DNA from: a virus
Strand: one strand, 5' to 3'
DNA length: 45,234 nt
IMG/VR virus record: IMGVR_UViG_3300036893_000016
Span: 1 to 45,234 of that record
Within the stretch, counting starts at the first letter, position 1. Every line of letters begins with the position of its first letter. The position numbers and the translations under genes are program-made. Under the pieces are notes generated by a model. It had not been told where the DNA came from, made no database searches, and saw only the letters and a program-made list of their open reading frames with translations. Below are positions 1 through 26,149 of this stretch, piece by piece.

Positions 1-985
1 TGAGGATTTAAAAGCTTACATTGCTGGCCATCCTGATTATAAGTTTGCAAAAGATGGAAGATTAGGATTAACCCACTTAGGTGACAAATTAAATTTGCGT
101 GAAGAAGCTATGCAGTCAAGTCTTTTAGAACACGTCCCAGGATTAGGCAAGATAGTAACAGCTTCAAACAGAGCTTTTGGGGGTTTTCTTAATGATCTTA
201 GATTTAATCGTTTTACCGATTTATTGAATGCCGCACGTTTACATGGTGAAGACGTTAGTATTGGCTCTAAGGTAGTCAAAGACATTGCAAATACTGTCAA
301 CGATTTTACAGGACGTGGGGATCTTGGAGAGAATGATAGATATGCCTCTGCTCAAACTTTGGCAAATAATGTATTTTTTGCTCCACGTAAAATGATAGCC
401 ACTATGAATATGTTTAATCCTGTACGTTATTTAGACCCAAGCGTTAGTCCTACGGCTCGAATTGGTGCGACTCGTCAGTTAGTTGGAAGCCTTATCGCAA
501 CATATTCAATTCTTCAATTAGCACAGATGGCAGGAGCAAAAGTAAATTTAGATCCACGTAGTCAAGATTTTGCAAAGATAAAATTAGGCAAGACAGATTT
601 TAATATCACTGGAGGAAATTCTACTTATATAAGAACATTGGCTCAATTAGCTACAAATACAAAAATAACTTCTGGTGGTCATAAACTAACTTTAGGAAAA
701 GGCTACAAACCTGAAACACGTGCCGATGTTGCTATAGATTTTATGAGAGGAAAATTATCCCCATCTGCATCAGTTTTAGTTGATGGATTATATGGTAAAG
801 ACATGGCCGGAAACAAATTCAATGTTGAGAACGAAGCGTATAACAAATTAGTCCCAATATTTACAAAAAGCTTCATTGATTTAGTACGCAACGATCATGA
901 CAACGGAATGGCTTACGTTGGCTCATTGGCAGCAGCTTTAGGCGTTGAAATGCACACCAAAGAACCGAGAGGAAAGGGAAAATGA
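1..985 (+). CDS. Putative internal virion/DNA-ejection protein, C-terminal part
   Basis: The frame is open from base 2. Joined to 44416-45108 through the terminal overlap it gives a protein of about 558 residues, of which this part is the C-terminal 327 or so. I do not recognise a catalytic motif. The segment around the join and the next 60 residues (acidic helices, then a PGLGK and a GGFLNDLRF stretch) resembles the late portions of very large phage polyvalent or ejection proteins. A hydrophobic stretch near VGSLIATYSILQLAQMAG may be membrane-seeking. It is the last gene of the internal-virion block and ends in an ATGA overlap with the first fibre gene at 982, so the two are probably translationally coupled. 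The function is inferred from position and resemblance. Confidence 0.75.
   Translation, partial: EDLKAYIAGHPDYKFAKDGRLGLTHLGDKLNLREEAMQSSLLEHVPGLGKIVTASNRAFGGFLNDLRFNRFTDLLNAARLHGEDVSIGSKVVKDIANTVNDFTGRGDLGENDRYASAQTLANNVFFAPRKMIATMNMFNPVRYLDPSVSPTARIGATRQLVGSLIATYSILQLAQMAGAKVNLDPRSQDFAKIKLGKTDFNITGGNSTYIRTLAQLATNTKITSGGHKLTLGKGYKPETRADVAIDFMRGKLSPSASVLVDGLYGKDMAGNKFNVENEAYNKLVPIFTKSFIDLVRNDHDNGMAYVGSLAAALGVEMHTKEPRGKGK
2..127. repeat. Terminal overlap, left copy
   Basis: Identical to 45109-45234 (126 bp). Base 1 is T where the other end has C at 45108; the change is synonymous (TAT/TAC, Tyr). The coding frame runs straight through the join. This fits an assembly overlap of a circular or terminally redundant genome; it could also be a genuine short terminal repeat. 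Confidence 0.9.
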
Positions 986-2172
986 AAAAATTTATCTTAA
1001 CAATTTTACTATCAATAATCGCTGGATACGCTGGAGCGAACGTGCCAAGTGCCACTCCTCTTTATAATCAATACAGCTGTAATGGAAGTGCTACACAATT
1101 CCCTTATCAGTTCCAAATCACAGCACCAAGTGATATGCAGGTATTTATTAACAATAATGCGGGAACTATTACTCAACAACCTTCTTCAGCCTTTTCTGTT
1201 GACCAGACTAACGTATGGGTGAATTATCCTTTGACAGGTTCTCCGTGTCCCAATGGAAGCACAATCACGCTTCAAGCGTCAACTCCTATAACTCAAATAA
1301 CCACTTATTCTCAAAGAACTCCTTTTACAGCGTCCGCAGTAGGGTTATCTTTCGATAAATTGACTTTAATCGACCAACAGCTTCAGGGACAGTTAAATCG
1401 TGCTATTTTAGCTCCTGCGGGTACAAGTGCTTTTACATTTCCAAGTAGTGTTCCGAGTAATCTTTTAGGGTGGGATCCTGCGGGAAGTGGAAACATAACT
1501 AACTTCGTACCAAATACAGGGGCGTATTTATCACAAGCCACAACGCAAGACGCTCAAACAGCTACTAATAATACTAAATACATGACCCCTGCCTTGGTAG
1601 CGACAGAAGTAGGATACTCAGGCGCAGTCAGCATTCCTATTGCCAATGTTTCTGGTGCGGTTGGATATCCTGGTGCGGGAGTTGCCAATTCAACTGGTTC
1701 AGCGTGGGGGACATCATACACTGTTGGAACTGGAACAAACAACTTAGTCCAGCTTAATTCTTCTTCACAGCTACCTGCTGTTAGTGGGGCTTTATTAACT
1801 AATCTTAATACAAAGTTTCAAGTAGCATTTTTCACAAAAGACATTTCATCAACAACAACAACAACTGTAACGGGAATTAACTTTACACCAAAAGCTGTGG
1901 TATTTTTCTACGCATTAAGTAGTGCTACAGTTCTTTCTGGGCAAGGCGCAGATGATGGAACTAATCATGGCTCAAGTGCAGTAGTAGAAAATTTAGGGAC
2001 TATTAATTCTGATTATAATTCATCCGGTTCTATATTAGCAGAAACGTATATAGCAACTAATTTAAATGTTGGAGTAGTTACTGGGTTTACTTCAAATGGT
2101 TGCACAATAGGATGGACAAAGACGGGCACTCCAACTGGAACAATTGGAATAACTGCTTTATTTTTAGGATAG
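982..2172 (+). CDS. Tail-fibre protein with signal peptide, T7-fibre-like N-terminus
   Basis: 396 residues. Residues 1-19 form a textbook signal peptide: KK, a hydrophobic core, then AGA before NVPS. Residues 25-135 (FPYQFQIT, then VWVNYPLTGSPCPNGSTITL, then QRTPF) look like the tail-attachment domain of T7-type fibres: a two-layer beta domain ending in an RxTP-like motif and a helix that starts trimerisation. The middle is Ser/Thr/Gly-rich fibre. The last 110 residues start with a FxxKDI/GINFTPKAVVFF pattern like a carbohydrate-binding fibre tip. The start overlaps the previous stop (ATGA). The fibre role is well supported; why a virion protein carries an export signal is unexplained (see findings). 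Confidence 0.8.
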   Translation: MKKFILTILLSIIAGYAGANVPSATPLYNQYSCNGSATQFPYQFQITAPSDMQVFINNNAGTITQQPSSAFSVDQTNVWVNYPLTGSPCPNGSTITLQASTPITQITTYSQRTPFTASAVGLSFDKLTLIDQQLQGQLNRAILAPAGTSAFTFPSSVPSNLLGWDPAGSGNITNFVPNTGAYLSQATTQDAQTATNNTKYMTPALVATEVGYSGAVSIPIANVSGAVGYPGAGVANSTGSAWGTSYTVGTGTNNLVQLNSSSQLPAVSGALLTNLNTKFQVAFFTKDISSTTTTTVTGINFTPKAVVFFYALSSATVLSGQGADDGTNHGSSAVVENLGTINSDYNSSGSILAETYIATNLNVGVVTGFTSNGCTIGWTKTGTPTGTIGITALFLG

Positions 2173-2181
2173 GATAAAAAT

Positions 2182-2505
2182 ATGTTTAAAGGAACCTTAA
2201 GCTTATCTTCAGACAATGGTAATGAACGCGCAAAGCTTCCGGTCATAGGATCAAGCTATACTGGAAGTCAAAGTGGGAACTATACGATCACTTTAGGAAC
2301 TGACTTTGCTGTACCTGCACGGGAACTTTTTATACAGAATGACGACAGCGCCAATATTAGTTTTGTAGTAAATTGCCAAGAAGGCACATTGGGATTCTTG
2401 ATTCAGCCTGGAGAACAGTTTGATGAGAGGCTTCCTATATTCAATTCAGTGATTGTAACAGCTGGTGGGAACTGGCGTTTTAGAGTGAGGGGAAATGTTT
2501 CTTAA
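2182..2505 (+). CDS. Small beta-rich virion-like protein
   Basis: 107 residues, almost all predicted beta strand (LFIQNDDSANISFVV, then GFLIQPGEQFDERLPIFNSV, then GGNWRFRVRGN). The pattern of an isolated strand pair, a PGE turn and a final WRFRVRG strand is common in small phage tail or capsid-decoration proteins, but I cannot name a family. It is the only gene between 982 and 8035, apart from the large fibres' neighbours, that lacks a signal peptide. Weak upstream AGGAT. Its end overlaps the next start by 11 bases, so it is part of the same transcript. Confidence 0.75.
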   Translation: MFKGTLSLSSDNGNERAKLPVIGSSYTGSQSGNYTITLGTDFAVPARELFIQNDDSANISFVVNCQEGTLGFLIQPGEQFDERLPIFNSVIVTAGGNWRFRVRGNVS

Positions 2506-3868
2506 ATTATTATTTTTCATATTATTTTCTTCAGTGGCTCTGGCTCAAAATACTAAGCCGTTAATTGCGACCGATAATTCTACGCAAACTTGCAATACGA
2601 CAAGAATGGTTTTTAGTCCTGGTGTTTTGGCTTGTTCTGGAAGCGTCGCCACTATTACAGGAAGCGGCGGAGGCGGCGGCTCCCCAGGCGGTTCCAACAC
2701 AGATGTCCAGTACAACAACGCAGGTTCCTTTGGCGGGAATGCCGGATTCGTCTATTCAGGCGGCAACGTAGGTATCGGCACAGCTACCGCAGGTTATAAT
2801 CTCACAGTCAACGGTTCAGCGCAATTCCAAGGGGCGGGGAATGTGGGGATTGGGACGGTGGTTCCGGCGCAGGCTTTGGACGTTAAAGGGACGGCCCAAA
2901 TGACAGGGTTCTCTTTAACTACGAGTCCTTCGTCAGGGTATGTGCTTACAAGCAATTCTGTTGGGATAGGAACGTGGGCTCCGGCAACAGGAGGTGGGGG
3001 TGGCGGAACTCCAGGTGGTTCTAATCCACAGCTTCAATACAATCAATCAGGTTCTTTTGGTGGAGTGGTCAATAGTGGCGTTGATTCTAACGGAAACATT
3101 GGGATTGGCACTTCAGTTCCAGGACAAACTTTAGACGTTAGCGGCACTGTAAGAATTATTGGAGCTGGGAATGTCGGAATTGGCAGCTCTAACCCCGCTC
3201 AGGCTCTCGATGTTCAAGGTACCGTTCGTATGGTTGGTTTCAATATGAGGACAGGGGCTTCAAATAATTATCTTTTAACATCAGATGCAAGCGGAAATGG
3301 TTCGTGGGCAGCGGCTCCGAGTTCCTCTCAATGGAGCGGAACAAATCCTATATACTTTAACGGAAACGTCGGAATTAATTCCACAATCCCTGGACAATCA
3401 CTTGATGTAGTAGGCACAGTTCGTGCTACTGGATTTATTGCAGGTGCGGCTGGCATCACGCTTGGAGGAGTAAACCATACATCATGGCCTGGAGGTGGAA
3501 GCACTACGACTGCCGTTCATACAGGAAGCGCAACTTATAATCTTACAAATTCTTTGGCTGACGTTGGTTCAGATGAGCATGTTACTCTTCCTGGGGCGGG
3601 ACTATATTTTATAACGATGTCAGCATTATGTAGTGGGCCAACTGTTACAGATACATTGGTTTATCAAATAAACGATCTCACCACTTCTTTAAGTTCGCAG
3701 CCAGTCGTGATAACAGCACCAACAGCTGGATTTAATTGGATTTATCAATCTTGGGCATTTACTGCAACAGGCAGTGATGTTATAACCGTGGAGGCGTATA
3801 ATGCCGCTGCTGCTCGTGGTCAAAATTTTAATAGCTATACATCAATAACTTATGTAGGGCCATTTTGA
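2495..3868 (+). CDS. Exported repeat fibre protein with NVGIG repeats and jelly-roll-like tip
   Basis: 457 residues. Signal peptide at 1-17 (MFLKLL core, ALA before QNTK). A Gly-rich linker (GGGGGSPGGSNTDVQYN) leads to about six copies of a 20-25-residue unit of the form GNVGIGT-xx-PGQ-x-LDV-x-GTVRATGF, seen in trimeric fibres and spikes. The last 115 residues, from HTGSATYNLTN, read like a C1q/TNF-type jelly roll ending in TYVGPF. Probably a trimeric adhesin or tail fibre. The start lies inside the previous gene with a GGGGAA ribosome-binding site, and the stop overlaps the next ATG (TGATG). It is the first of three proteins sharing the repeat. Confidence 0.8.
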   Translation: MFLKLLFFILFSSVALAQNTKPLIATDNSTQTCNTTRMVFSPGVLACSGSVATITGSGGGGGSPGGSNTDVQYNNAGSFGGNAGFVYSGGNVGIGTATAGYNLTVNGSAQFQGAGNVGIGTVVPAQALDVKGTAQMTGFSLTTSPSSGYVLTSNSVGIGTWAPATGGGGGGTPGGSNPQLQYNQSGSFGGVVNSGVDSNGNIGIGTSVPGQTLDVSGTVRIIGAGNVGIGSSNPAQALDVQGTVRMVGFNMRTGASNNYLLTSDASGNGSWAAAPSSSQWSGTNPIYFNGNVGINSTIPGQSLDVVGTVRATGFIAGAAGITLGGVNHTSWPGGGSTTTAVHTGSATYNLTNSLADVGSDEHVTLPGAGLYFITMSALCSGPTVTDTLVYQINDLTTSLSSQPVVITAPTAGFNWIYQSWAFTATGSDVITVEAYNAAAARGQNFNSYTSITYVGPF

Positions 3869-4074
3869 TGAAATATTTATTACTTACAATTTTTTTGGTG
3901 TTTTTACCGGGAATCCCGGGAAATGCTGATGTTTATATTCATGGTTTTGGAACGAGCTATTGGCGTAACTCTTATTTTATAACACCACTTACTCCGCCAG
4001 TAGGGGGAAATCTAACTTTCTTAACCAATAATCTTCAGTTTAATGGAAGCGTCTTAACATTTTTGGGGGATTGA
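3868..4074 (+). CDS. Small exported protein, DVxxxG family, copy 1
   Basis: 68 residues. Signal peptide to about residue 21 (GNA before DVYIHG). The mature part is only about 47 residues. ATG 3868 is chosen over an in-frame TTG one codon earlier because it overlaps the upstream stop as TGATG. It is a paralogue of the gene at 5188: both start MKYL-x-LTI and begin the mature chain with AD-V-(aromatic/V)-(I/V)-(H/R)-G. Each copy sits directly before a large repeat fibre with its own signal peptide, suggesting a small partner or chaperone-like piece of the following fibre. No known family recognised. Confidence 0.65.
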   Translation: MKYLLLTIFLVFLPGIPGNADVYIHGFGTSYWRNSYFITPLTPPVGGNLTFLTNNLQFNGSVLTFLGD

Positions 4075-5186
4075 TGAGATTTCTATTTTTACTTTTATTT
4101 ATGATTCCAAACTTAGCACACGCTAATACTGAAATTAGCACAGCGGCGACTAATCTTGGTATTGGCACTACTTCAGTTAAAAATGCTTTGAGCGTTGCAA
4201 GCACAGAGGCGATTGGTTCTTCGTATGTTAATACCACAGCCCCTGCTAATGGTTTGATTGTGCAAGGTAATGTAGGTATAGGTTCATCAAATCCTGGGCA
4301 TATATTAGATGTTAAAGGCACTCTTGACTTCCTTCATCAAGGCGGGACTGGAAATTACGGAGACGCCTCAACACAAATCAAAGGGGCTCAAACAGGAATT
4401 AATGGTTATGTATTAGAGTTACTTGATAGTAGTGGAAATATTGTTGACCAATTCAACACTGACGGAAGATTAAATATTCAAAACTATAATGCTGCTGAAG
4501 GTGCGGTTGGAGTTTTATACAATGAAGCTACGTCAAATAGCAGTATGCCAGTTGGCCATTGGGCGTATGGTGCTAAAAACGATTCAGGAAATATGAATAC
4601 CACGGGTCGTCTTTATAATGTTCTGACTAGCAATGCTACCAATTCAATGGGAAGTTATCTGTCTTTTGATTATATGGACAATGACGATACTTCGGGAGGG
4701 TACACGCAACCAAATAAGTCAATGACCCTTGGAGCTGCGGGTTTATCTTTGCCTGGGATTCCAATTACAGACCAAACTGGAATTTTAACTTTATCCCCAA
4801 GTAGCGGCTCAACGTATGTCAAAGGCCCTAATACAACAAACGTAGTTAATCTCACAATATTTAACACAAACTTTTCTGCTTTTGATTATGTAGGAGTTGA
4901 AAATGTCAACGCAACGGGATATGGCACCACAGGAGCTTTGCCTTATGCTTCTGTATTTGGAAATCCTATTGCAGAGCCGATTCAATTTTTTACTAATAAT
5001 GTTGACAGGGTTACTATTACAGCGACAGGTAATGTAGGAATTGGGACGGTTGTTCCTACATCACTAATTTCAGTTGGCGGAACTTGTCATACTATAGGGC
5101 CAGTAGGGACTTGCTGGACTTCAACGGGTCAGCTTGGATATTGTAGTGGGGCAGCTAATGTTTGTTCAACCTGTACGGCGTGTTAA
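4074..5186 (+). CDS. Exported fibre protein with NVGIG repeats and Cys-rich end
   Basis: 370 residues. Signal peptide at 1-18 (AHA before NTE). Three NVGIG-type units (residues about 28, 68 and 323) flank a central region of about 240 residues with YNSxxGN and SYLSFDYMDNDD segments typical of receptor-binding shafts. The last 40 residues hold seven cysteines (GGTC, GTCW, YCSG, NVCSTCTAC), unusual for a cytoplasmic phage protein and consistent with disulfides formed after export. Start ATG overlaps the previous stop (TGATG); an in-frame TTG one codon earlier is less likely. Receptor-binding or surface-adhesin function is inferred. Confidence 0.78.
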   Translation: MRFLFLLLFMIPNLAHANTEISTAATNLGIGTTSVKNALSVASTEAIGSSYVNTTAPANGLIVQGNVGIGSSNPGHILDVKGTLDFLHQGGTGNYGDASTQIKGAQTGINGYVLELLDSSGNIVDQFNTDGRLNIQNYNAAEGAVGVLYNEATSNSSMPVGHWAYGAKNDSGNMNTTGRLYNVLTSNATNSMGSYLSFDYMDNDDTSGGYTQPNKSMTLGAAGLSLPGIPITDQTGILTLSPSSGSTYVKGPNTTNVVNLTIFNTNFSAFDYVGVENVNATGYGTTGALPYASVFGNPIAEPIQFFTNNVDRVTITATGNVGIGTVVPTSLISVGGTCHTIGPVGTCWTSTGQLGYCSGAANVCSTCTAC

Positions 5187-5187
5187 T

Positions 5188-5382
5188 ATGAAATACTTAA
5201 TTTTAACAATCTTACTATTAACACCCAAGCTGGTATCAGCAGATGTTTTTGTTAGAGGTACGATTTTTCATAACGCCGTAATAGTTCCCTCAATGGGTTC
5301 TTCAATACCCGCAGGGGCTTTAGCAGATGACGCAGGACACTATTTAAACGACGATGCAGGACATTACTTGGTGGGACAATGA
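5188..5382 (+). CDS. Small exported protein, DVxxxG family, copy 2
   Basis: 64 residues. Signal peptide to about residue 18 (VSA before DVFVRG). The mature chain ends in a tandem repeat DDAGHYLNDDAGHYL. The start is the ATG two bases after the previous stop; a longer in-frame extension would lose the signal peptide. It is a paralogue of the gene at 3868 and likewise precedes a large repeat fibre. It ends in an ATGA overlap with the next gene. No known family. Confidence 0.6.
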   Translation: MKYLILTILLLTPKLVSADVFVRGTIFHNAVIVPSMGSSIPAGALADDAGHYLNDDAGHYLVGQ

Positions 5383-7739
5383 GACTACTAATTCTATTAT
5401 TATGCTTGGTAACAACAAACGCTTGGGCCACGGTAACTAACACCTATGTTTTAAATGTCAAGAACGATGCCGCAAACCCGCCAACTGAACAAAATGGTTC
5501 CATTGTTGATACCGGGACTTCGAGTGGGTTTGGCAACGTCGGTATCGGATCTCTGAACCCTGGGGTTAAATTAGATGTTTTAGGCACAGTCCGAGCAACT
5601 AATTTCATAGGTTCTTCGGCAGGATTGACTGGATTGCCAGTAGGCGCAAATCCTTCACAGGTTATAGGAATTTTAGCTAATAATGGTTCAGCAACTACCT
5701 TTATGCGCTCAGACGCAACTCCTGCTATAGATGAAGGAATTATTCCTAGCTGGACAGGCGAGCATGAATTTAGCGGAAGTCCGTATGCAATTATAGTGAA
5801 CGGGATTATTTCTGGCGCATCTCCAAATGATTGGCAAGTAGATGCTTCAGGCAATGCTCAGTTCGGAGATTATATAGGTGGCCCATGTTTAACTATTAGT
5901 AACGGTCAAATTCAAGCTGACTGCGGAGCCATAACCATAGGAGATGGTTCTGGAGGTGCAAGTTCTGGTGCTGGCACAGCTTCTTTTGCTCGTGGTAATA
6001 TGACAATAAGCTCAAACGGCGGGGCATCATTCTCTAGTGGTGCTGCGACAATAGACGGAAGCGGAAGGGTAGGCGCAAGCCAGTTTATAACAAATGGTGG
6101 AAACAATACTCAAGTGGTTCTTGGTGATGGAACTTTGGGGACGTATAGCACAGGTTCTGGAACAGTTACCTCTGTAGGCTTATCAAGCACAAATTCAACC
6201 TTGACTATCGGAAGCACTCCCGTTACTACTTCTGGAACGATTACAGCAGATATTAATTTAGCCCACGCTAATACCTTCACTGGTCAGCAAATATTTAATA
6301 GCGCAAATGTGGGGATCAATTCAGCGACACCAGGACAACGTCTTGACGTCACCGGCACGGTGCGGGCAACGGCGTTTATTGGGAATGGGGCACAATTGAC
6401 AGGTATCAGTTCTTCGCAATGGACTACCACCAACACTAATGACGTCTATTTGCCTAATAGCGGCAATGTTGGGATTGGGACAACAAAAACTACCACTGCT
6501 GGGCTAACAGTGATGAACGGTAACGTAGGTATCGGTACCTGGGCGCCGAATGGATTACTTAATGCCAGTAGTCTAAAAGTTATTACATCTACCACATGTG
6601 GTTCAACACCAGCTACTATTATTGGCAGTATTCAAAATACAGGAGGGGATGAATGTGCGCCATTTGCTATAAATCAGACTGACCCGAATGGTAATATATA
6701 TTTTCGAGTTGGTACTACGACAGGAGCTATCGAAGTTGGCGGAACTAGTACCACTGGTTTTATTAATACAAAACCCAATACAGCTAATACAACTCCAATG
6801 GCATTTGAGATAAATAATACAACCAAAATGGAATTGTCTGCTAATGGCGGTTTAGCATTGGGTAGTACATATTATTCCACTGATCCTGGTGCTAATAATG
6901 CGATTATTCAAGGTAATTTAGGGATAGGAACTACTTTAGTCACTACTTCTGCTTTAACAGTCATGAACGGCAACGTAGGTATCGGCACCTGGGTGCCGGC
7001 GGGGTTGCTCGACGTAAACCGTAAATTAAATGTCTTTTCAAGTGGGAATGTGGGCATTGGTTCTGTGAATCCTGGGCAAGTATTAGACGTGCAAGGTACT
7101 GTGAGTGCAACCAACTTCAATGAGAAAACATTTACTAACGGCTCTTTAACTAAGTACAATTCAAGTGGGGATATTGTATCAGCTGCCTTAATTCCAGGTA
7201 CTCTTACGGACACTAAGCTATGCTCTTATACATCCTCTGGAACAGCTTTAAACTGCACAACGACAGCCCCAACGGTTACTGTCAACGCTGGCACAGGAAA
7301 TCAAGTCGCTTATTACTCAGGAGCCAGTACGATATCAAGCACGTCAGATATTACCTTTGCAGGGAGCAGTACAAATTTCTTAGCTGGAGGAGTATTTACT
7401 AACTTTGTCACCTTAGACGATGGTTCTGGAAACTCTTATTTTGGGAACATAAGCAGTACAGGTTCTCAAACGGTAGGGTACAATCCCCAGTCATCTACAT
7501 ACGCAGTCGTGGCATCTGATTACTTTGTAAATGCCACATCAGGCACTTTCACGATAACCTTACCTTCTGCAATCGGAATTGCAGGGAAAGTCTATAAATT
7601 TAAGAATAGCGGATCAGGGGTCGTTACTATCGCCACAACAAGCAGTCAGACAATAGACGGTTCAACAACAAAGACTCTAGCAGCCACAGGAACATTAACT
7701 GTAATAGCAGCTTCAAATAACTGGGTAATAATGCCTTAG
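5379..7739 (+). CDS. Large exported tail-fibre/spike protein with NVGIG repeats
   Basis: 786 residues, the longest fibre. Signal peptide at 1-17 (AWA before TVTNT). About seven NVGIG units at roughly residues 52, 310, 363, 384, 512, 533 and 558 alternate with beta-rich inserts. The first unit is followed by GTVRATNFIGSSAGLTGLP, a string common in bacterial surface and phage fibre proteins. The C-terminal 85 residues (SDYFVNATSGTFTITLP, then GVVTIATTSSQTIDGST, then NNWVIMP) are a typical fibre/spike end domain. Translation is coupled to the preceding gene by ATGA. Likely the main host-recognition protein or a cell-surface adhesin. Confidence 0.82.
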   Translation: MRLLILLLCLVTTNAWATVTNTYVLNVKNDAANPPTEQNGSIVDTGTSSGFGNVGIGSLNPGVKLDVLGTVRATNFIGSSAGLTGLPVGANPSQVIGILANNGSATTFMRSDATPAIDEGIIPSWTGEHEFSGSPYAIIVNGIISGASPNDWQVDASGNAQFGDYIGGPCLTISNGQIQADCGAITIGDGSGGASSGAGTASFARGNMTISSNGGASFSSGAATIDGSGRVGASQFITNGGNNTQVVLGDGTLGTYSTGSGTVTSVGLSSTNSTLTIGSTPVTTSGTITADINLAHANTFTGQQIFNSANVGINSATPGQRLDVTGTVRATAFIGNGAQLTGISSSQWTTTNTNDVYLPNSGNVGIGTTKTTTAGLTVMNGNVGIGTWAPNGLLNASSLKVITSTTCGSTPATIIGSIQNTGGDECAPFAINQTDPNGNIYFRVGTTTGAIEVGGTSTTGFINTKPNTANTTPMAFEINNTTKMELSANGGLALGSTYYSTDPGANNAIIQGNLGIGTTLVTTSALTVMNGNVGIGTWVPAGLLDVNRKLNVFSSGNVGIGSVNPGQVLDVQGTVSATNFNEKTFTNGSLTKYNSSGDIVSAALIPGTLTDTKLCSYTSSGTALNCTTTAPTVTVNAGTGNQVAYYSGASTISSTSDITFAGSSTNFLAGGVFTNFVTLDDGSGNSYFGNISSTGSQTVGYNPQSSTYAVVASDYFVNATSGTFTITLPSAIGIAGKVYKFKNSGSGVVTIATTSSQTIDGSTTKTLAATGTLTVIAASNNWVIMP

Positions 7740-7747
7740 GAGGGTAT

Positions 7748-8035
7748 ATGAAAAAAGTATTAGGGATTTTAGCAATCGGTTTAGTGGTATTCGCAGTTCA
7801 CGCATGGGCGGAGTCTGTAACAACTTCAGATGGCGTAAACTTCAACGTGACCAATGACGTAGGTGTTTCAACAACAATGACCAATGCACAGATTATGCAG
7901 ATGGTCAATTCTTCTAATAATAAGGCGAGCTTAGACCAAGAGAAGTTACTGGCTGACAGTGAAATCGCTTACTCATGGGCTGGTGTTGAGCAATTAGCGA
8001 TTAATGCAGACGTGACGGCAAATATACAAAATTGA
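7748..8035 (+). CDS. Small exported protein after the fibre genes
   Basis: 95 residues. Signal peptide at 1-21 (MKKVLG, a hydrophobic core, AWA before ESV). The mature part is polar, with a beta-like start (VTTSDGVNFNVTNDVGVSTT) and a helical C-terminus. It has a strong ribosome-binding site (AGGAGGG) and lies 8 bases after the big fibre. It is the last of seven signal-peptide genes in a row. Function unknown; a periplasmic partner of the fibres is possible. Confidence 0.7.
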   Translation: MKKVLGILAIGLVVFAVHAWAESVTTSDGVNFNVTNDVGVSTTMTNAQIMQMVNSSNNKASLDQEKLLADSEIAYSWAGVEQLAINADVTANIQN

Positions 8036-11801: not shown

Positions 11802-11863
11802 CGCCACATGACGCCGTTTATACTTGCTCTCCGTTCCTTTAATGTTGTGGGTGATGGGGTTAT
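11802..11863 (-). repeat. Intergenic repeat B1, long form
   Basis: 62 bases identical to 15699-15760. Read leftward it begins with the stop of the cytosine methyltransferase gene (TAA 11862-11860), then CCCCATCACCCACAACATTA, AAGGAACGGAGAG and TATAAACGGCGTC. The last piece resembles the start of repeat A, as if a B and an A element had fused after loss of the gene between them. Confidence 0.85.
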
Positions 11864-12719
11864 TTACCTTCAATTTCCATAATCCTCTTACCTATCCATT
11901 CAGCAACGTTTACCGTTACTGCATTACCAATGACAACCCCTCTGGGTGAGTCCAATTCATAGGAAGCCCCTGTAAGCGTTCCTTCTCCACTGGGATTAAC
12001 TTCCGCAATGTAATTACCCTGTCTTGGTCGTCTTTCAATACCCCGTTGTCCAGTCGTAACTGTATATGCGAGGTATCCCTGCAATCTTTTACCGCTTTCG
12101 GATGTTCTGACAGTAGAAGCGACAACCAACTCAGTTTGCGGGTCGTTCCGTTGACCACTTCTTGCATTAACACACGGGCTGACCGTCCGTCCCTCTGTGC
12201 CCTGCGGATTATCCCTATCACCGCTTTCTGGCTTAAATAATACTTTTGCGGAACCGATATTTCCAAGACTTCCGACAATAATAACTCTTTTACGTTGCTG
12301 GGGAACGCCGAAGTTTTTGGAGTCCAACACATCCCACGATACACAATACCCGAGCGCATCAAGTGAGGATACGACTTCCAAGAAATCTTCCCCATCGTTG
12401 ACAGAGAACAAACCTGGGACATTTTCTGCGACAAACCAACGAGGTCTGAATAGTTCAAGGATACGTCTGTATTGAGAGAACAGGCCACTTCTTTCGCCTT
12501 TATGACCTTTTCTTGAGCCAGCGATTGAATTGTCCTGACATGGCCATCCTCCACACAAAATGTCGATATGTCCGTATGTTTCGGGACTTTCGGCCAATGC
12601 CTCTGTAAAATGCTTAAAGCAAACGGCATCTTTTCTACTTGCCATATACACTCCATTCCGGCCTTCTCAAGACCTAAGTCCATACCACCACAACCACTAA
12701 AAAGACTGCCTAACTTCAA
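11860..12719 (-). pseudogene. Cytosine-C5 DNA methyltransferase, frameshifted
   Basis: All parts of a Dcm-type enzyme are present but in two alternating frames. From TTG 12719 (RBS AAAGGAG): motif I LGSLFSGCGGMDLGLEKAG. Near 12560-12580 the frame changes, and the other frame carries the catalytic motif IV GGWPCQDNSIAG, ENVPGL, and QQRKRVIIVG. Near 12000 the first frame returns with RKLIPVEKERLQGLP. Near 11945 the second frame resumes with GNAVTVNV. One frame alone (11860-12651) is open for 263 residues but lacks the SAM-binding motif I. The enzyme would methylate DNA against host restriction if whole. The neighbouring genes are intact, so this is probably a decayed gene; base errors in the assembly are the alternative. 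Confidence 0.8.
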
Positions 12720-12750
12720 ACATCTCCTTTTATTGTAAGAATATCGGATT

Positions 12751-12942
12751 TCATTTTCTGTCTGTAGCAATAACCATTTCGCCATTATCATAGACAATAG
12801 CGCATGGCCTCAATATATAGCCTTTAGGATTATACTCTTTATACTTATCCATAAACTCTTTCAAATCTGTTTCTCCATATGCCACATTCTGAAATGTACC
12901 TTCTGCATTTAAAATAGCTACTGCATTTACTGATTCAATCAT
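12751..12942 (-). CDS. Hypothetical 63-residue protein
   Basis: Beta/helix/beta pattern (VNAVAILNAEGTFQNVAYGE, then LKEFMDKYKEYNP, then YILRPCAIVYDNGEMVIA). Ribosome-binding site GGAG 6 bases before the ATG. It sits between repeat B2 and the methyltransferase remnant. Family unknown. Confidence 0.6.
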   Translation of the reverse strand: MIESVNAVAILNAEGTFQNVAYGETDLKEFMDKYKEYNPKGYILRPCAIVYDNGEMVIATDRK

Positions 12943-19754: not shown

Positions 19755-19895
19755 TTACCAACCCCACAGGAATATAGTGCAGTTAATTAAACTTAATTTA
19801 GGCTTATTGTTTTCTAACCAAATACGCCTTAATTCTTTTGTTCTTTTTCTTTTCTCGTATCCTTTAAAATACTTTCTTGTTTGATATCCGCCCAT
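19755..19895 (-). CDS. 46-residue basic protein in sugar operon
   Basis: MGGYQTRKYFKGYEKRKRTK, then ELRRIWLENNKPKLSLINCT and a Trp-containing end. Start overlaps the upstream methyltransferase stop by one base (TAATG) and its own stop directly abuts the next ATG, so it fills the gap exactly. Lys/Arg-rich; function unknown. Confidence 0.6.
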   Translation of the reverse strand: MGGYQTRKYFKGYEKRKRTKELRRIWLENNKPKLSLINCTIFLWGW

Positions 19896-20515
19896 TACTT
19901 GTACACCACTGAAATTCCAATTGACCTATTGTCAGGGTTTGACTTGTTCGGACCGAAACAGTCACAAAGCATCATCGTACCTCCAAAGGTCTTCATCTTT
20001 TCGCCATTGGCTTCGAGTTCTTTCCTGAAACGAATACATCCTGACTTGTGATCTCCTGGGCCTTCGTCTAAAAGCGTGTCGTGTAATAGAATTATCCCAC
20101 CATTCACAACCTTTGGTGCGAATCTTTCATAGTCAGCTTTAACCATGTGATACCGGTGATCTGCGTCAATATGAAGGAAGTCACATTTATCTATTTCAGC
20201 TATTGAAGAAGGCTGCTCTTTAGTTATAAAAGCAATATCTGGACGTCTGTTATGAAGCTCTTCTATTACCGCGTCAAGAACAGGATCTATTTTAATATCA
20301 ATAATCGTGAATTTTGCTTCTGGTGCACCGAAAAGCTGTGAGTATAGCCACACCGTACCACCGAAGCATGAGCCTATTTCAACCATGTTGTCGAACTTGC
20401 GATTGCCTAGCTCTGTGACTAACTGCTCAAGTTCATCCAAAGACTGAAGGATTCCACCATGTTTCACGGGAAACAATTTGTCGTACGTCATGATTAAATC
20501 ATATAGATTTGCCAT
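19895..20515 (-). CDS. Class I SAM-dependent methyltransferase
   Basis: 206 residues. Motif I MVEIGSCFGGTVWLYSQ near residue 42 and post-I acidic IIDIKI near 73; DFLHIDADHRYHMVKADYER near 112 and GGIILLHDT near 140 are typical of the Methyltransf_24/CmcI-like group, which often methylate hydroxyls of sugars or antibiotics. With glycosyltransferases on both sides it probably O-methylates a sugar. N-terminal 35 residues form a helical cap. Confidence 0.75.
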   Translation of the reverse strand: MANLYDLIMTYDKLFPVKHGGILQSLDELEQLVTELGNRKFDNMVEIGSCFGGTVWLYSQLFGAPEAKFTIIDIKIDPVLDAVIEELHNRRPDIAFITKEQPSSIAEIDKCDFLHIDADHRYHMVKADYERFAPKVVNGGIILLHDTLLDEGPGDHKSGCIRFRKELEANGEKMKTFGGTMMLCDCFGPNKSNPDNRSIGISVVYK

Positions 20516-20516
20516 A

Positions 20517-20633
20517 TTACCCTTTCATTTTAAAATATCCGTAAACAACTATTCCCAAGAGAATGGCACATACAATAAGGCCACCATTCCCATCTCCTTC
20601 CTGTGATATTGGTTGCCAATCAGCTACGAGCAC
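20517..20633 (-). CDS. Small single-pass membrane protein, GTG start
   Basis: 38 residues: VLVADWQPISQEGDGNG, then a membrane helix (GGLIVCAILLGIVVYGYF), then KMKG. GTG 20633 lies inside the end of the fucose-synthase-like gene behind AAGGAG, and the stop is two bases before the next gene. Might tether sugar enzymes to the membrane. No ATG start is available. Confidence 0.5.
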   Translation of the reverse strand: MLVADWQPISQEGDGNGGLIVCAILLGIVVYGYFKMKG

Positions 20634-21570
20634 AATTCTCCTTGTACCATTTAATTGTATTCAACAAACCATATTCTAAATGAATCTTCGATTTAAACCC
20701 AAATGCTTTATAGGCCAGTTTAACATCTAGGCCACAACGAGGCTTTCCATCTGGCCTTGCGGAGTTCCATACTACAACACCTTTGAATTTAGTGTATCCA
20801 CGGATCATCTCTACCAGAATTTTCATGGGAGTTTCTTCGCCTGTTCCTATATTCACAGGTTCAGGACTATCATATTTCTCGGTAGCCAAGACAATAGCCC
20901 TAGCGCAATCCTCAACATGTAGGAACTCTCTCGAAGGCGTACCAGTTCCCCAAACTTCTACTACGTCTTTCCCCTCTGTGAATTTACGGATAAGCGCCGC
21001 TACTACGTGGGAGGTTTCAAGATCAAAGTTATCCCCAGGTCCGTAAAGATTTGTGGGTATGAGATAAATGCTATTAAACCCGTACTGTTTACGATAGGCT
21101 TGAGACATAACTAAGAGCATCTTCTTGGCCAGGGCATAAGGAGCTACAGTCTCTTCTGGGTAACCTTCCCACATTTCTGTTTCCTTAAAAGGTGGGTTTA
21201 AGTGTGCTGGATAAAGACAGCTTGATCCTACATTGACAAGCTTTAGAATACCAAATTGCCTAGCTTGTTCCATTAGGTTTATTCCCATTTGCATATTGTC
21301 GTAAAACATCTGTCCAGGACGTGCCTTGATATCTCCTATCCCGCCAACGGTCGCGGCGCAATGGATAATGCAATCAGGATTAGTGTTTTGTAAAAGTTCT
21401 CTCACATGAGAAGATTCTCGTAGATCGTATTCCTTATGCGAGCAACCAAAGACATTTGGACATTTCGTTTCTAATTGTCTAATAACCTCCCTTCCAAGGA
21501 AGCCTGACGAACCAGTAACCAATATTCTTCTGTTTTTAAGTTTTATAGTTGGGGATATCGTCTTGGCCAT
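20620..21570 (-). CDS. fcl: GDP-L-fucose synthase-like NAD(P) epimerase/reductase
   Basis: 316 residues, the usual size. Rossmann motif ILVTGSSGFLGREVIRQLE (GxxGxxG at about 20-26), HCAATVGGIGDIKARPGQM, VNVGSSCLYPAHLNPPFKE, and the catalytic PYALAKK (YxxxK). EETPMKILVEMI and GKPRCGLDVKLAY are typical of Fcl/WcaG. It would make GDP-L-fucose from GDP-4-keto-6-deoxymannose, or a related sugar. No GDP-mannose dehydratase is present, so the host must supply the substrate. Start overlaps the glycosyltransferase upstream by 28 bases. Confidence 0.85.
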   Translation of the reverse strand: MAKTISPTIKLKNRRILVTGSSGFLGREVIRQLETKCPNVFGCSHKEYDLRESSHVRELLQNTNPDCIIHCAATVGGIGDIKARPGQMFYDNMQMGINLMEQARQFGILKLVNVGSSCLYPAHLNPPFKETEMWEGYPEETVAPYALAKKMLLVMSQAYRKQYGFNSIYLIPTNLYGPGDNFDLETSHVVAALIRKFTEGKDVVEVWGTGTPSREFLHVEDCARAIVLATEKYDSPEPVNIGTGEETPMKILVEMIRGYTKFKGVVVWNSARPDGKPRCGLDVKLAYKAFGFKSKIHLEYGLLNTIKWYKENCARS

Positions 21571-22325
21571 TTTGATGGGCTCCTTTGCCAGTTGTTAATA
21601 CTAATTACACATTGGGGTTTAAAATGTTTGGCCCAATAAACTCCTCTGAATAAAGGAGTATCATGTTCCATAACAGCACGATGTACAGGGCCATGGTCCG
21701 AGGATTCTTTTGGTTGCCAAGAGCAGTGATCTAGACGGTCTTTCTCAATAATAAACTTAGCTCCATAGAATTGCGCTCTCATAGACCAATCGTTATAACA
21801 ATAAGCCATCGTCTCGTATTTACAGTCAAACCCTCCTGTTGCTCCCATTAGCTGTTTAGAAATCAAGCCATTCATATACAAGCGAAAATGTAGAGGTATA
21901 TTTGGATGTCTGAAGTCTCCGTGAAACCACGCTGTATAGTACCAATCTGTAAGCATCCACTTTGACCAATTATCGCTCTCGGTATATTTACAGACCACCA
22001 CGGTTTTATAATCGAAGCCATTCCTGCAAAGAGTTTGCCATGCTTTATTCATAGTGTCTGGATCAAACTTACAGTCGTCCGTGGCAAATGAAACCCATTC
22101 AGCTTTAGCAGCAATCCAACCTAATTGAAGCGCACGAGAAGGACATCCACAATCTTGTATCAACTGAACTTCGCCTCGATAATTAAGATTCATTTCAGGA
22201 AGTTCATAAGGACTAATAAAGATTATTTCAAAGGATCCATGCCAACACATTAAAAACGAATCGTAGACAGTTTGGTACATTTCAGGACGTATGCCTGGCA
22301 CAACAAGACTTATTTGCGGTGTCAT
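21543..22325 (-). CDS. GT2-like glycosyltransferase, tandem paralogue 3
   Basis: 260 residues. ISLVVPGIRPEMYQTVYDSF, then FEIIFISPYELP, then SRALQLGWIAAKAEWVSFATDD (DD motif near 80), matching the two genes upstream in layout. The C-terminus holds MRAQFYGAKFII and HDTPLFRGVYW, then an NNW near the end. Cytoplasmic, nucleotide-sugar dependent. Start overlaps the previous stop as ATGA. Confidence 0.75.
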   Translation of the reverse strand: MTPQISLVVPGIRPEMYQTVYDSFLMCWHGSFEIIFISPYELPEMNLNYRGEVQLIQDCGCPSRALQLGWIAAKAEWVSFATDDCKFDPDTMNKAWQTLCRNGFDYKTVVVCKYTESDNWSKWMLTDWYYTAWFHGDFRHPNIPLHFRLYMNGLISKQLMGATGGFDCKYETMAYCYNDWSMRAQFYGAKFIIEKDRLDHCSWQPKESSDHGPVHRAVMEHDTPLFRGVYWAKHFKPQCVISINNWQRSPSKWPRRYPQL

Positions 22326-23050
22326 TTAAACCTCGCCTTCCATCGTTCTTCTGTATATTGCCAATTATTAAGTTCAATGTTTATACGGTCATTTGGTTTT
22401 GAATATATGTACCTGAAAGTTGCAATATCCTTCTTCATAGCATTGTGAACTGCGAAATGATCCCCTTGTCTGTTTGGCAAATGGCTACACTTAAACATAG
22501 GCTTATCCATTAAGACCATCATTTTTCCATGTTTTCTAACTCGTATGCCTAAGTCAGCATGTGCCATTGTTGTGCATTCAAAATTTTCTGCATCCCACCC
22601 TCCAAGTTCTCTTATCAATGAATTTGAGATAACCCCACAATTAAAAATAAATCCATAAGGAGGTACGCCTTCTAATTTGTACGCATCATGATATTTAAAA
22701 TAATAGTATTCTGTGGATTCCATATTTTTAGGATTTTCCCCCTCAAGGTATTTCCCAACAGGAACGCACCCATCTTTTGCTAGTCCAACGGCGTGGTCTA
22801 ATGCACCTGGAAGAAATACTCCGTCATCCGCGGCCCACGAAATATATTCACCCTCGGCCATCATTAACCCTATCTGTTGACAAGCACAAGGTGATCTATA
22901 AGAGCATCTATATTGAAGGTTAGGCGCACCAAACGGTGAAGCGTCAGGCCCTACGAAGATAATCTCCCACTCACCTTTGAAATCTACGGAATCGTAAAGC
23001 TTCTTCCAGTTGGCAGTTCTAATTCCCGGTACGATTATGCTTAATTTCAT
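22322..23050 (-). CDS. GT2-like glycosyltransferase, tandem paralogue 2
   Basis: 242 residues from ATG 23050, chosen because it overlaps the upstream stop as ATGA. LSIIVPGIRTANWKKLYDS, then WEIIFVGPDASPFG, then CQQIGLMMAEGEYISWAADD (DD near 73). Shares the VPGIR start, the IIFVGP strand, the DD motif and the C-terminal LNNWQYTEERW with its neighbours: a tandem duplication that has diverged in acceptor-side residues. Confidence 0.78.
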   Translation of the reverse strand: MKLSIIVPGIRTANWKKLYDSVDFKGEWEIIFVGPDASPFGAPNLQYRCSYRSPCACQQIGLMMAEGEYISWAADDGVFLPGALDHAVGLAKDGCVPVGKYLEGENPKNMESTEYYYFKYHDAYKLEGVPPYGFIFNCGVISNSLIRELGGWDAENFECTTMAHADLGIRVRKHGKMMVLMDKPMFKCSHLPNRQGDHFAVHNAMKKDIATFRYIYSKPNDRINIELNNWQYTEERWKARFK

Positions 23051-23841
23051 TTTTTCTCCCAACGCCCTTGTGGACCAGCTGGCACAGTGAAAATATTGTT
23101 GTAATTAAACGGTTGATGCGGCAGTAGCCTAACAGGCGATACAGTTCCATGTGTCAACGTCTTTTCGTCGTAAGTCCCGTAACCTTCCTTGACCCAACAT
23201 TCCTCTAAATATCTTCGGTCGTTTTCGTATCCTGTGCGGAAAGAGTTTTTTCCTAAGCGGTATTTTATTTTATTTATAAAACCACCATGAACTTCCTCGT
23301 GATTAAGGTAAACTCGTGATTCTGGGATATTTTCTATTACAGCACCTTTTGACAAGGCTGTCATAATAATGTCATTTTCAGCTTGACCCGAAGTAAACTG
23401 GCGATCATAACCACCACATTCCCAAAAAAACTTCCTATTCATAAAAGCCATTGGACACATCACTGGTGTGTCTTTACAATTCCTAAAAAAACAATGCTCA
23501 CTGGTAACATCTTTACTATTTTCTATTGTTGATTGAGTGTAGATACATTGAGTCGTTGATTTTTTATAGGCATCTAAAATAATGTCAAGAGCATTTGGAG
23601 CGTAAACAGCATCATCTGCCGTCCATCCAATTAATTCACCTTGGGCCATGTAGCTTGCAGCTGCATAGCATTGTGTTGGCTTAAAAGGACACCAATAATA
23701 CCAAAGATTACGTGGTAATAATGGAAGTCCTTGTGGCCCTACAGCAATGATTTCCCAAGAACATTTATTTTCTTGCAAAGAATCTACCATACGCTTCCAC
23801 CATTGAGGACGATTTGAACTCATAAATAAACTAATATCCAT
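23047..23841 (-). CDS. GT2-like glycosyltransferase, tandem paralogue 1
   Basis: 264 residues from ATG 23841, which overlaps the GT9 stop (TAATG) and follows AAGGAA; a longer start is inside the GT9 gene. ISLFMSSNRPQWWKRMVDSL, then WEIIAVGPQGLPLL, then CYAAASYMAQGELIGWTADD (DD near 75). The C-terminal third differs from the other two paralogues, so acceptor or linkage differs too. Confidence 0.75.
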   Translation of the reverse strand: MDISLFMSSNRPQWWKRMVDSLQENKCSWEIIAVGPQGLPLLPRNLWYYWCPFKPTQCYAAASYMAQGELIGWTADDAVYAPNALDIILDAYKKSTTQCIYTQSTIENSKDVTSEHCFFRNCKDTPVMCPMAFMNRKFFWECGGYDRQFTSGQAENDIIMTALSKGAVIENIPESRVYLNHEEVHGGFINKIKYRLGKNSFRTGYENDRRYLEECWVKEGYGTYDEKTLTHGTVSPVRLLPHQPFNYNNIFTVPAGPQGRWEKK

Positions 23842-24845
23842 TAAATCATTCCTTTCAAGACATCCCAAACTTCCGAAACTGTGATGTCCTTAACATTTGG
23901 TTTATAAATTAATTTAGGCAACACCATTCCTTCACGAGATTTCTCAACTTCGTATGGCAAAAAACGTCCTAAGCGTTCTGAGCCAATACAAACAGACGGC
24001 ACGTCTAAGGCACAAGCTAAGTGAATAGGTGCGGAGTCGTTAGCAATAAGTAGTGTGGAATTATTTATTCTATTGATAAAGGAAATTAAGTGCGTTTTGC
24101 CAGTCAAATTCATTACATGGCTTGGTAAATTCTTAATTGGCCTATCATTACAAACTGTTATTGTATGTCCGTATAATAAGTGCATGAGTTTGATAAATTT
24201 CCATAGAGGCCATTCTTTGCGCTTACGAAATGAGCCTGGACAAATAACAATATTTTTAACAAGATTATGCCTTGGAATTTGAGGAATGTGCGCGGTTAAT
24301 TTTGGCGCTGTGCTTTTAAAGGTTGCCCTGCCAAGCTCACGTAAAAAATCAGCATTGCGACTTAATTCATGAACGTGAGGACGCATCGGAATTGAGCGTG
24401 TAAAGTAGTTTTGTTTCTCAATCGGAAATGAACCCTCGCAAACAATCTTAGACGTTGCGCCAGAGATAGCAACTATTGGTGGTTCGAGCGTGAACTTTAC
24501 TGAATGACGGGGACAGATCACAATATCAAATCCTTGCCTGCGAATGAATAATAGAAATTGTAAACGATACCATGGATTCAAACGGAACTTCATTGTGTCT
24601 AGTGGTATAACTTCGTCCCAATATGGAAGCGACTTGGCTAGGTCGTACCAGTTTCCGTTAACTAAAAGCGTCAGGCGCTTACCGTGATAAAGCTTTCGAT
24701 ATTCTTTAGCGCTGTCTAACCAGAGAACAAAATCACCCAATTGATCTAGGCGTAAAATAAGAACGTCGTTAAAGTCGGACGGCGGAGTAAATGAAACTGC
24801 CCAATTGAATGCTGAGACGTAAAATTGTTTAAGCTTGCGAATCAT
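23841..24845 (-). CDS. GT9 (heptosyltransferase-like) glycosyltransferase
   Basis: 334 residues, family-typical length. VLILRLDQLGDFVLWLDSAK near residue 28 is the GT9 start (xRxDxxGDxxxxxP in heptosyltransferases). NIVICPGSFRKRKEWPLWKF near 190 and LLIANDSAPIHLACALDVPSVC near 273 are the GT-B C-domain donor-site motifs (SPxxHLAxALxxPxVxxxG). It would add a heptose or similar sugar to lipid A-core-type acceptors at the inner membrane. Its presence suggests an LPS- or LOS-bearing host. Confidence 0.85.
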   Translation of the reverse strand: MIRKLKQFYVSAFNWAVSFTPPSDFNDVLILRLDQLGDFVLWLDSAKEYRKLYHGKRLTLLVNGNWYDLAKSLPYWDEVIPLDTMKFRLNPWYRLQFLLFIRRQGFDIVICPRHSVKFTLEPPIVAISGATSKIVCEGSFPIEKQNYFTRSIPMRPHVHELSRNADFLRELGRATFKSTAPKLTAHIPQIPRHNLVKNIVICPGSFRKRKEWPLWKFIKLMHLLYGHTITVCNDRPIKNLPSHVMNLTGKTHLISFINRINNSTLLIANDSAPIHLACALDVPSVCIGSERLGRFLPYEVEKSREGMVLPKLIYKPNVKDITVSEVWDVLKGMI

Positions 24846-25104
24846 TTAATTTTACAATCCTAACTGTTTTTCCCGTAGAATTATCTTTAACTTTCCCACA
24901 TTCAATTAAAAACCCATCTCGTATTAATTCTGTGATCCTTGGCCTAACGTAGTTCATATCTAGTGTTCCTAAGGCATACGCAATCTCTCTATCTGTGAAA
25001 ACCTTTGTCAAGCCCCCTTCATAAACTTCCATTATCATACGCCTGCGTTCTGAAGTGTTTAATCCGTGATAACATTCTATTGAGTTATCATGAACGTTTT
25101 TCAT
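24829..25104 (-). CDS. Winged-helix DNA-binding protein
   Basis: 91 residues. LNTSERRRMIMEVYEGG, then FTDREIAYALG and LDMNYVRPRITELIRDGFLI form helix, helix, recognition helix; CGKVKDNSTGKTVRIVKL is the beta wing. Begins one base after the preceding stop, GAGGAG upstream. It heads the glycosyltransferase run and may regulate it or act as an early phage regulator. Confidence 0.7.
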   Translation of the reverse strand: MKNVHDNSIECYHGLNTSERRRMIMEVYEGGLTKVFTDREIAYALGTLDMNYVRPRITELIRDGFLIECGKVKDNSTGKTVRIVKLNDSQA

Positions 25105-25335
25105 TTAATTCTCCTCATAATGTGAGCATTCATTATCACATTGCAGTTGTGGCTGACCATCAACCATACAATTGGTGTAACATTCTGAATCAACTACCTT
25201 GCGTGGACTGTGAGCCTCTGTGTTTAATTTATCCTGTTCTGCCGCTATCCATGTAGGAGGCACGCCATCACTACCTGTGTCATTTGCATAGCAATAACTA
25301 GGTAGTAGAATCAACAGAATTAATAATTTTTTCAT
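25105..25335 (-). CDS. Small exported protein with twin CX3C
   Basis: 76 residues. Signal peptide at 1-19 (hydrophobic core, CYA before NDTG). The mature 57 residues end with SECYTNCMVDGQPQLQCDNECSH: two CX3C pairs, an arrangement that can form a disulfide-linked helical hairpin. Translationally coupled to the replication gene (ATGA). Predicted periplasmic; function unknown, possibly immunity or superinfection exclusion. Confidence 0.6.
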   Translation of the reverse strand: MKKLLILLILLPSYCYANDTGSDGVPPTWIAAEQDKLNTEAHSPRKVVDSECYTNCMVDGQPQLQCDNECSHYEEN

Positions 25336-25802
25336 TTAACACACTCCTTAAATTCTTTTGGTGGTATTGAACTAAAAGGAACTTTTGTGCTTTTGCTTTT
25401 AGCTGTTCTTTTAGCCATATCCATGCTTTTGCTTTTAATGGTAAGGTAATCATTAGGTAATGATTCCTTAACCATTGTTAATAAGTCTAATCTTTCTAGC
25501 TCTTTAATAACAGAAACAATAACAGGACGATTTGAGCGTAAGTCCCCATATTGGAAAGTGATAAAGCGAGGAATGAAGTAGAAATTACCACAATCTTTAA
25601 GCCTTCCATTAAATACATTTTTTAGTTCTTCTTCTTTAATAGTGGTTTTGCAACAAAAATTCATGAGGTCGAAGCCTTTTTTGAAAATACCAGCATGGTT
25701 GCAGTTATCAAGTATGTATTGCCAAATGGTTTTGTAATCATTGTTTAATGATATAAACCATTCGTCTTTCCACTTCTCTGTGTCTGTTAATCGTTTAGCC
25801 AT
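25332..25802 (-). CDS. Putative replication initiator, helix-turn-helix type
   Basis: 156 residues. MAKRLTDTEKWKDEWFISLN, then YKTIWQYILDNCNHAGIFK, then FDLMNFC are highly typical of the N-terminal winged-helix domain of phage replisome organisers (O/DnaD-like: xxKrfxxtxxWxdxWFxxLxxxyKLlWxYlldNCDxaGix). The second part is Ser/Lys-rich (SKSMDMAKRTAKSKSTKVP). No DnaC-like loader follows. First leftward gene, facing the AT-rich region that may hold the origin. Confidence 0.7.
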   Translation of the reverse strand: MAKRLTDTEKWKDEWFISLNNDYKTIWQYILDNCNHAGIFKKGFDLMNFCCKTTIKEEELKNVFNGRLKDCGNFYFIPRFITFQYGDLRSNRPVIVSVIKELERLDLLTMVKESLPNDYLTIKSKSMDMAKRTAKSKSTKVPFSSIPPKEFKECVK

Positions 25803-25880
25803 AAATTAAAACCCCCGCCTGGTGATGAGCCAGGTGAAGTCGGCAAGGACACGGGGGGACAAACAGTTATCCCGTTTGTT
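25803..25880 (-). promoter_or_regulatory. Structured leader upstream of the replication gene
   Basis: Just upstream of ATG 25802. Nested pairing: CCCCCG (25812-25817) with CGGGGG (25852-25857), and inside it CCTGG/CCAGG (25818-25834). Read leftward, the GGGGG that would serve as ribosome-binding site is one side of the outer stem, so folding would block translation. A second stem ACAAAC/GTTTGT lies at 25859-25879. On the + strand the second hairpin is followed by a T-rich run, so it could also end rightward transcripts. Confidence 0.5.
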
Positions 25881-26017
25881 ATTTTTCATTTTTGAATTTG
25901 TTTTGATTTTCATTCATCTATCCTTGCCTTGGTTGATGTTTGTAGTATTGCATAACTAAAAACAAAATGCAAGAAAAATTGTAATTATTTTCACTTACAA
26001 AATAAATCAAAAAACAA
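25881..26017. other. AT-rich divergent intergenic region, possible origin
   Basis: About 140 bases of A/T-rich sequence with A runs and no gene, between the leftward replication gene and the rightward late operon. It must hold the promoter of the leftward replication/sugar operon; TTGCAT followed 17 bases later by AATACT on the minus strand is a weak candidate. Its place next to the replication gene makes it the best origin candidate, but no clear iterons are visible. Confidence 0.35.
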
Positions 26018-26045
26018 TTGACCTTAGGTTTAATAGTGCTAATAT
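26018..26045 (+). promoter_or_regulatory. Rightward promoter for late operon
   Basis: TTGACC (26018-26023), 16-base spacer, TAATAT (26040-26045). A sigma70-like promoter that would give a leader of about 100 bases before ATG 26150. Confidence 0.55.
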
Positions 26046-26059
26046 TTAATTGTATTTAA

Positions 26060-26082
26060 GATTCAGCCTAATTAACTGAATC
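26060..26082 (+). promoter_or_regulatory. Leader hairpin
   Basis: Perfect seven-base stem GATTCAG/CTGAATC with a nine-base loop, 15 bases below the -10. It lies between promoter and terminator, in the position used by antitermination elements or by the 5' end of a small RNA. Confidence 0.55.
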
Positions 26083-26099
26083 TCCAATAAATTTAGAAA

Positions 26100-26131: not shown

Positions 26132-26149
26132 ATTGGTTAAAAGGAAAAA

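Follow-up and report, generated by a model that had tools for sequence, protein, structure and literature searches.

Predicted secretion signals on tail-fibre genes of an uncultured podovirus-type phage

Phage tail fibres are held to be made and attached to the particle in the cytoplasm of the host. Among the closest described systems, the Carin1 tailspike Dpo31 (PDB 8ck1, 28lx) and the N-terminal domain of T7 gp17 (7boz, 7ey9) share, by profile and by fold, the tail-attachment domain of a fibre encoded by gene 982 (genes are named after their first base) of an uncultured phage, the virus record IMGVR_UViG_3300036893_000016, whose whole stretch of 45,234 bases was analysed here and is called the window. 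In Carin1 and T7 the fibre genes come after internal virion genes, as gene 982 does, but their proteins begin at the initiator methionine and, unlike the 982 protein, have neither a signal peptide nor a cysteine pair. The nearest annotated matches to 982 are the fibres of the Pelagibacter phages HTVC010P, HTVC024P and Lederberg (28-34% identical across the attachment domain), which differ from the window in lacking the signal, of the Cys pair and of a downstream array of signal-bearing genes. On the bacterial side, the MAT fibres of Bdellovibrio (PMC10769870; PDB 8ojn) combine, as the window fibres may do, a signal peptide with phage-fibre-like trimeric beta repeats. The product of gene 2495 matches 8ojn weakly (E 0.003), and no match to MAT fibre structures was obtained for that of gene 5379. 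However, MAT fibres are bacterial surface proteins, localized on the predator surface, with a different N-terminal domain: the MAT domain, which follows the signal and is about 130 residues long, is reported to be without a structural homologue in the PDB (PMC10769870), whereas the 982 domain has PDB fold matches. An S74 domain is present in 13 of 21 MAT fibres (PMC10769870), and a search of the window for this chaperone (PF13884) gave no match. The use of the host Sec pathway by late phage proteins, as proposed here, has been reported for exported endolysins of the SAR or signal-peptide type (PMC7143992, PMC12571629), although these are lysis enzymes and not virion adhesins; likewise, Lom of phage Lambda (PMC12309495) is an exported protein encoded between tail genes, but it resides in the outer membrane of the host cell and, unlike 982, has no virion-attachment domain. 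In one survey, the phage origin of variable phage proteins was held to be supported by their lack of signal peptides (PMC6199706). A search of the open-access literature returned no earlier report of an export signal on a fibre, a tailspike or a virion protein.

The portal, tail tubular, capsid and internal virion proteins of the window are those of a podovirus of the epsilon15 / BPP-1 / Carin1 / HTVC010P type. Since bases 2-127 are repeated exactly at the other end (45109-45234, a terminal repeat of 126 bases), the record probably represents a complete, circularly mapping genome. An internal virion gene is split across the two ends of the window, that is, across the terminal repeat, and the fibre block (982-8035) comes after it. 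The block holds eight genes (Table 1), with junctions that mostly overlap or nearly touch. Elsewhere, on the minus strand, a cytosine-methyltransferase-like sequence at 11860-12797 is spread over two overlapping frames of the same strand, one of them with a PF00145 match, which suggests a frameshift or a sequencing error.

Table 1. Features of the fibre block of the window. A slash marks the predicted cut; scores are those of the home-made signal-peptide scorer described in the text.
Feature	Position	Strand	Remarks
Predicted signal peptide of gene 982, MKKFILTILLSIIAGYAGA, 19 residues	982..1038	+	score 11.5; abuts tail-attachment domain
Rest of gene 982 (mature protein): attachment domain of podovirus tail fibres, then fibre tip	1039..2172	+	profile match 1048-1437
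107-residue protein without signal peptide, internal control	2182..2505	+	score -2.5
457-residue fibre, NVGIGT-type repeats; predicted signal 2495-2545, MFLKLLFFILFSSVALA	2495..3868	+	score 21.5; tail PHROG match
68-residue putative exported protein; predicted signal 3868-3927, ending GNA/D	3868..4074	+	score 7.1, weak
370-residue fibre, NVGIGT-type repeats, Cys-rich end; predicted signal 4074-4124, MRFLFLLLFMIPNLAHA	4074..5186	+	score 17.8
64-residue putative exported protein; predicted signal 5188-5241, ending VSA/D	5188..5382	+	score 6.1, weak
786-residue fibre, NVGIGT-type repeats; predicted signal 5379-5429, MRLLILLLCLVTTNAWA	5379..7739	+	score 15.5; repeat pattern at 6972-7015
95-residue putative exported protein; predicted signal 7748-7810, MKKVLGILAIGLVVFAVHAWA	7748..8035	+	score 15.5; weak PHROG match, unknown function

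The signal-type N-termini that the original prediction had ascribed to seven of these genes (982, 2495, 3868, 4074, 5188, 5379 and 7748) are present as described, all with ATG starts. Its naming of all seven as tail-fibre genes held for four, 982, 2495, 4074 and 5379, which are fibre-like, and not for 3868, 5188 and 7748, which encode 68, 64 and 95 residues. A basic start, a hydrophobic core of 8-14 residues and small residues at -3 and -1, as expected of Sec/SPI signals, were found in all seven, in two of them weakly, with the predicted cleavage sites being, in gene order, AGA/N, ALA/Q, GNA/D, AHA/N, VSA/D, AWA/T and AWA/E. Tat and lipoprotein signals were rejected by eye, as the twin arginine is absent and the cleavage sites have no lipobox. 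The N-termini were scored with a home-made scorer, built on 30 E. coli signal peptides, which combines a weight matrix for the cleavage site with the hydrophobic core and the charge of the n-region; in leave-one-out runs, the true E. coli signals scored 5.4 or more, with 17.6 as the median. Scores were strong (15-21) for 2495, 4074, 5379 and 7748, intermediate for 982 and weaker for 3868 and 5188. With a relaxed cut-off of 6, set after the scores were seen, and a core of 8 or more residues free of charge, 7 of the 74 ORFs of the window match, which are exactly the seven genes, all in the eight-gene block (clustering p ~4e-9), as compared to 3 of 390 ORFs in eight related podophage genomes. The stricter cut-off of 9 leaves five genes of the block and one alanine-rich false positive elsewhere in the window, versus 1 of the 390 podophage ORFs. 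Moreover, the signal segments of the block have short cores and a 19-residue hydropathy of 1.4-2.0, low for a stable membrane anchor, and cleavable signals are therefore favoured over anchors. The signal-less protein at 2182-2505 has a homologue (45% identity), likewise without a signal, in one of the relatives described below (G002), and no homology was detectable between it and the virion protein that adjoins the fibre in Pelagibacter phages. At the DNA level, the signal segments at 982-1041 and 5188-5241 are more alike than codon shuffles give, and signals may have been copied between these two genes. As regards the repeats of the three downstream fibres, a plausible signal was found in 4 of 58 other complete viral proteins with the NVGIGT pattern, and fibres of this kind thus do not ordinarily carry one.

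The T7-fibre-like attachment domain suspected in gene 982 was recovered by both profiles and structure prediction. From residue 26 on, its product matches PHROG tail-fibre profiles (phrog_13893, E 1e-12), and a profile of isolate fibres gave this gene as its single match in the window (E 3e-52), which therefore shows no second attachment domain by this search. When the mature domain was modelled (pLDDT 80), its best PDB fold match was the Carin1 tail fibre (8ck1_B, E 4e-8), and every chain in ranks 1-22 of the fold search belongs to a podovirus tail complex or fibre, among them those of PhiM1, LME-1, HRP29, Kp7 and T7; the TM-score of the best match is only about 0.5, which may result from a hinge between the domain and the helix. 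The premise that tail fibres normally carry no export signals also stands for the related phages, in which the domain starts at the initiator methionine, and gene 982 departs from them in having a 19-residue signal peptide ahead of it. The scorer preferred a cut five residues beyond AGA/N, and AGA/N was adopted because it is consistent with the start of the homologues. A cut there by signal peptidase would leave an N-terminus that differs from that of a normal fibre by about one residue at most.

Similar fusions were found in other phages. A scan of IMG/VR with a degenerate DNA pattern that demands a basic start, then hydrophobic codons, then the attachment domain, the matches being read in frame, yielded three further distinct, uncultured phages with a signal directly ahead of the attachment domain. 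The signal is MKKILLYAMLTFVLLAGMSTQSHA, followed by VVSS, in G001 (IMGVR_UViG_3300014838_000052), MKRLMLSALVAFGLLSAISTPSYA, followed by IVSS, in G002 (3300049716_000014), and MKRLLLALIFVFVGVSIAGA, followed by TVNI, in G004 (3300037246_000774), where it precedes a 724-residue pectate-lyase-like tailspike (PF12708). Three more signal-bearing genes lie downstream in G001, and two candidates in G002. For 982, G002 and G004 the best cut of the scorer was a few residues off, and the AxA-type site in line with the homologues was taken instead; several signals of the relatives also score weakly. Profile matches start at residue 25-26 (G001, G002) or 21 (G004), against profile positions 2-3, and the cuts would therefore leave a normal fibre start, near residue 1 or 2. 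Between phages the signals diverge in sequence and keep their signal character. Close relatives without the first 20 residues would have refuted the original prediction; those found keep the N-terminal signal. Trees of portal and capsid place the window in one clade with G001 and G002 (support 99/99), in which its portal shares only about 35% identity with the other two. G004 falls outside this clade; the signal-bearing state therefore sits on two or more branches and must have changed no fewer than two times. When 982 and the tail tubular protein were each used for single-protein scans, these returned only a contig near-identical to the window (G003; L002, L045), which tracks it to residue 163 of gene 982 and then diverges near the contig end, possibly because the fibre tip varies or the assembly breaks there. 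A mixed alignment proved too divergent as a scan query, and alignments A2 and A3 returned only known members and one signal-less contig (L050). Run over genomes from 84,980 species of bacteria and archaea, the same DNA pattern gave 15 matches, none of them a real signal or a signal-bearing fibre.

A further peculiarity of these domains is found in their cysteines. The mature part of 982 contains a candidate disulphide, Cys33 and Cys89, and in an alignment of 49 attachment domains (4 signal-bearing and 45 signal-less) two fixed columns hold a Cys pair in three of the four signal-bearing domains (window, G001 and G004; it is missing in G002) and in none of the signal-less ones (Fisher p 2e-4, uncorrected for kinship). 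The simplest reading of the pair would be a disulphide formed outside the cytoplasm. On the other hand, the Cys-rich end of 4074, previously taken as support for export, is real, with six cysteines in the mature part, but equivocal in that role, because G002 has a protein with 38 cysteines and no signal peptide. This protein (L049:11115-12188, 357 residues) is encoded beside the fibre genes.

Altogether, we tentatively regard genes 982-8035 as a late operon whose products, fibres and their small partners, would be exported by the host Sec machinery. Signal peptidase would remove the signal, leaving the attachment domain of 982 with a nearly ordinary podovirus fibre N-terminus, and in most of these phages the domain would then form its disulphide in the oxidising periplasm. 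Heads and tails would assemble in the cytoplasm without fibres and, once the inner membrane fails at lysis, the fibres stocked in the periplasm would meet the particles and plug into the tail. The signals, the identity of the domain, its exact fusion, the Cys pair, the recurrence in distinct lineages and the single attachment domain of the window are read from sequences and models, whereas we infer that export takes place in vivo, that the disulphide forms and that the fibres join the particles at lysis. Export of the fibres seems likely; their joining to virions afterwards is put forward with reserve, and it would explain why attachment domain, exact fusion and Cys pair occur together. More speculatively, a whole class of tailed phages, with at least two lineages, might complete their virions outside the cytoplasm, with Sec-secreted, disulphide-bonded fibres that plug into fibreless particles at lysis.

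The exported proteins could instead act off the virion, either on the surface of the infected cell or in shed form, as receptor covers, glycan-stripping agents, decoys or adhesins. Such roles would fit the presence of signal peptides on several fibre-like and small proteins, the likeness of the repeats to those of exported MAT fibres, the pectate-lyase-like tailspike of G004 and the glycan-modifying genes elsewhere in the window. The latter lie at 19895-27936, a possible glycan-modification cluster in which methyltransferase (PF13578), epimerase-like and glycosyltransferase-like genes accompany a large membrane protein, all names but PF13578 having been assigned by eye. However, the attachment domain has been kept and is the sole one in the window, so that the virion would have no such fibre, and the exact fusion preserves the fibre N-terminus, which makes a purely off-virion function rather unlikely. 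It is possible that one protein serves both roles.

It is improbable that the signal, uncleaved or slowly cleaved, tethers the fibres at the inner membrane, where tails would collect them before lysis. The hydrophobic N-termini of all seven proteins and the weak cleavage-site scores of 3868 and 5188 are compatible with such tethering, but short cores with AxA-type sites suit cleavage better than anchoring, the passenger would lie on the periplasmic side, away from the cytoplasmic tails, and the Cys pair would be left unexplained. No better prospects are seen for two products per gene, a signal-bearing form exported to a role at the cell surface and a signal-less form, started internally, that enters the virion. 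In its favour, an in-frame GTG (1042-1044), with a GGAG five bases upstream, lies exactly at the boundary between signal and domain of gene 982, and is a possible internal start for a signal-less fibre. In G002 and G004, however, the stretch from the signal to the conserved part of the domain contains no in-frame ATG, GTG or TTG; a cytoplasmic signal-less form could not start there, and the arrangement would not be general. Finally, the suggestion of the original prediction that the signals were copied from host surface-protein genes can hardly be upheld in the sense of passengers of recombination with no role in the phage, since, despite the NVGIGT repeats common to exported bacterial fibres and the alike signal DNA of 982 and 5188, which suggests shuffling, the signals persist with diverging letters in a clade whose portals are about 35% identical, sit on seven of the eight block genes, turn up again in a second lineage, join the domain right at its start, go with the Cys pair in most cases and are rare among other viral NVGIGT proteins.

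The account in which exported, periplasm-oxidised fibres join virions at or after lysis also has points against it, namely the weak scores of 3868, 5188 and several relatives, the G002 signal without a Cys pair, the GTG at 1042, the possible incompleteness of the contigs G001, G002 and G004, which may have a second fibre gene, and the size of trimeric fibres, which, if exported, might be trapped at the membrane or the outer membrane. A bacterial secretion signal joined exactly to the domain by which the fibre plugs into the particle, with similar signals on neighbouring genes of the fibre region, suggests that host-recognition parts are sent out of the cytoplasm rather than assembled inside it. 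If exported fibres do reach the virions, the last assembly step of a tailed phage can occur outside the cytoplasm, periplasmic oxidation becomes usable by fibres, and an action on the cell before lysis is possible. A word of caution also follows, as a signal peptide and fibre repeats alone are no proof of a bacterial surface protein.

Signals were also seen outside the fusions described. In G004, a 216-residue ORF on the minus strand (28075-28725), adjoining the portal gene, has the top signal-peptide score of all ORFs scored (24.1). NVGIGT fibres with plausible signal peptides occur in other viral contigs (L136, L100, L122 and L098), and exported fibre genes may thus be spread more widely; in L136 they are accompanied by an S74 domain and by neighbours with hydrophobic N-termini.
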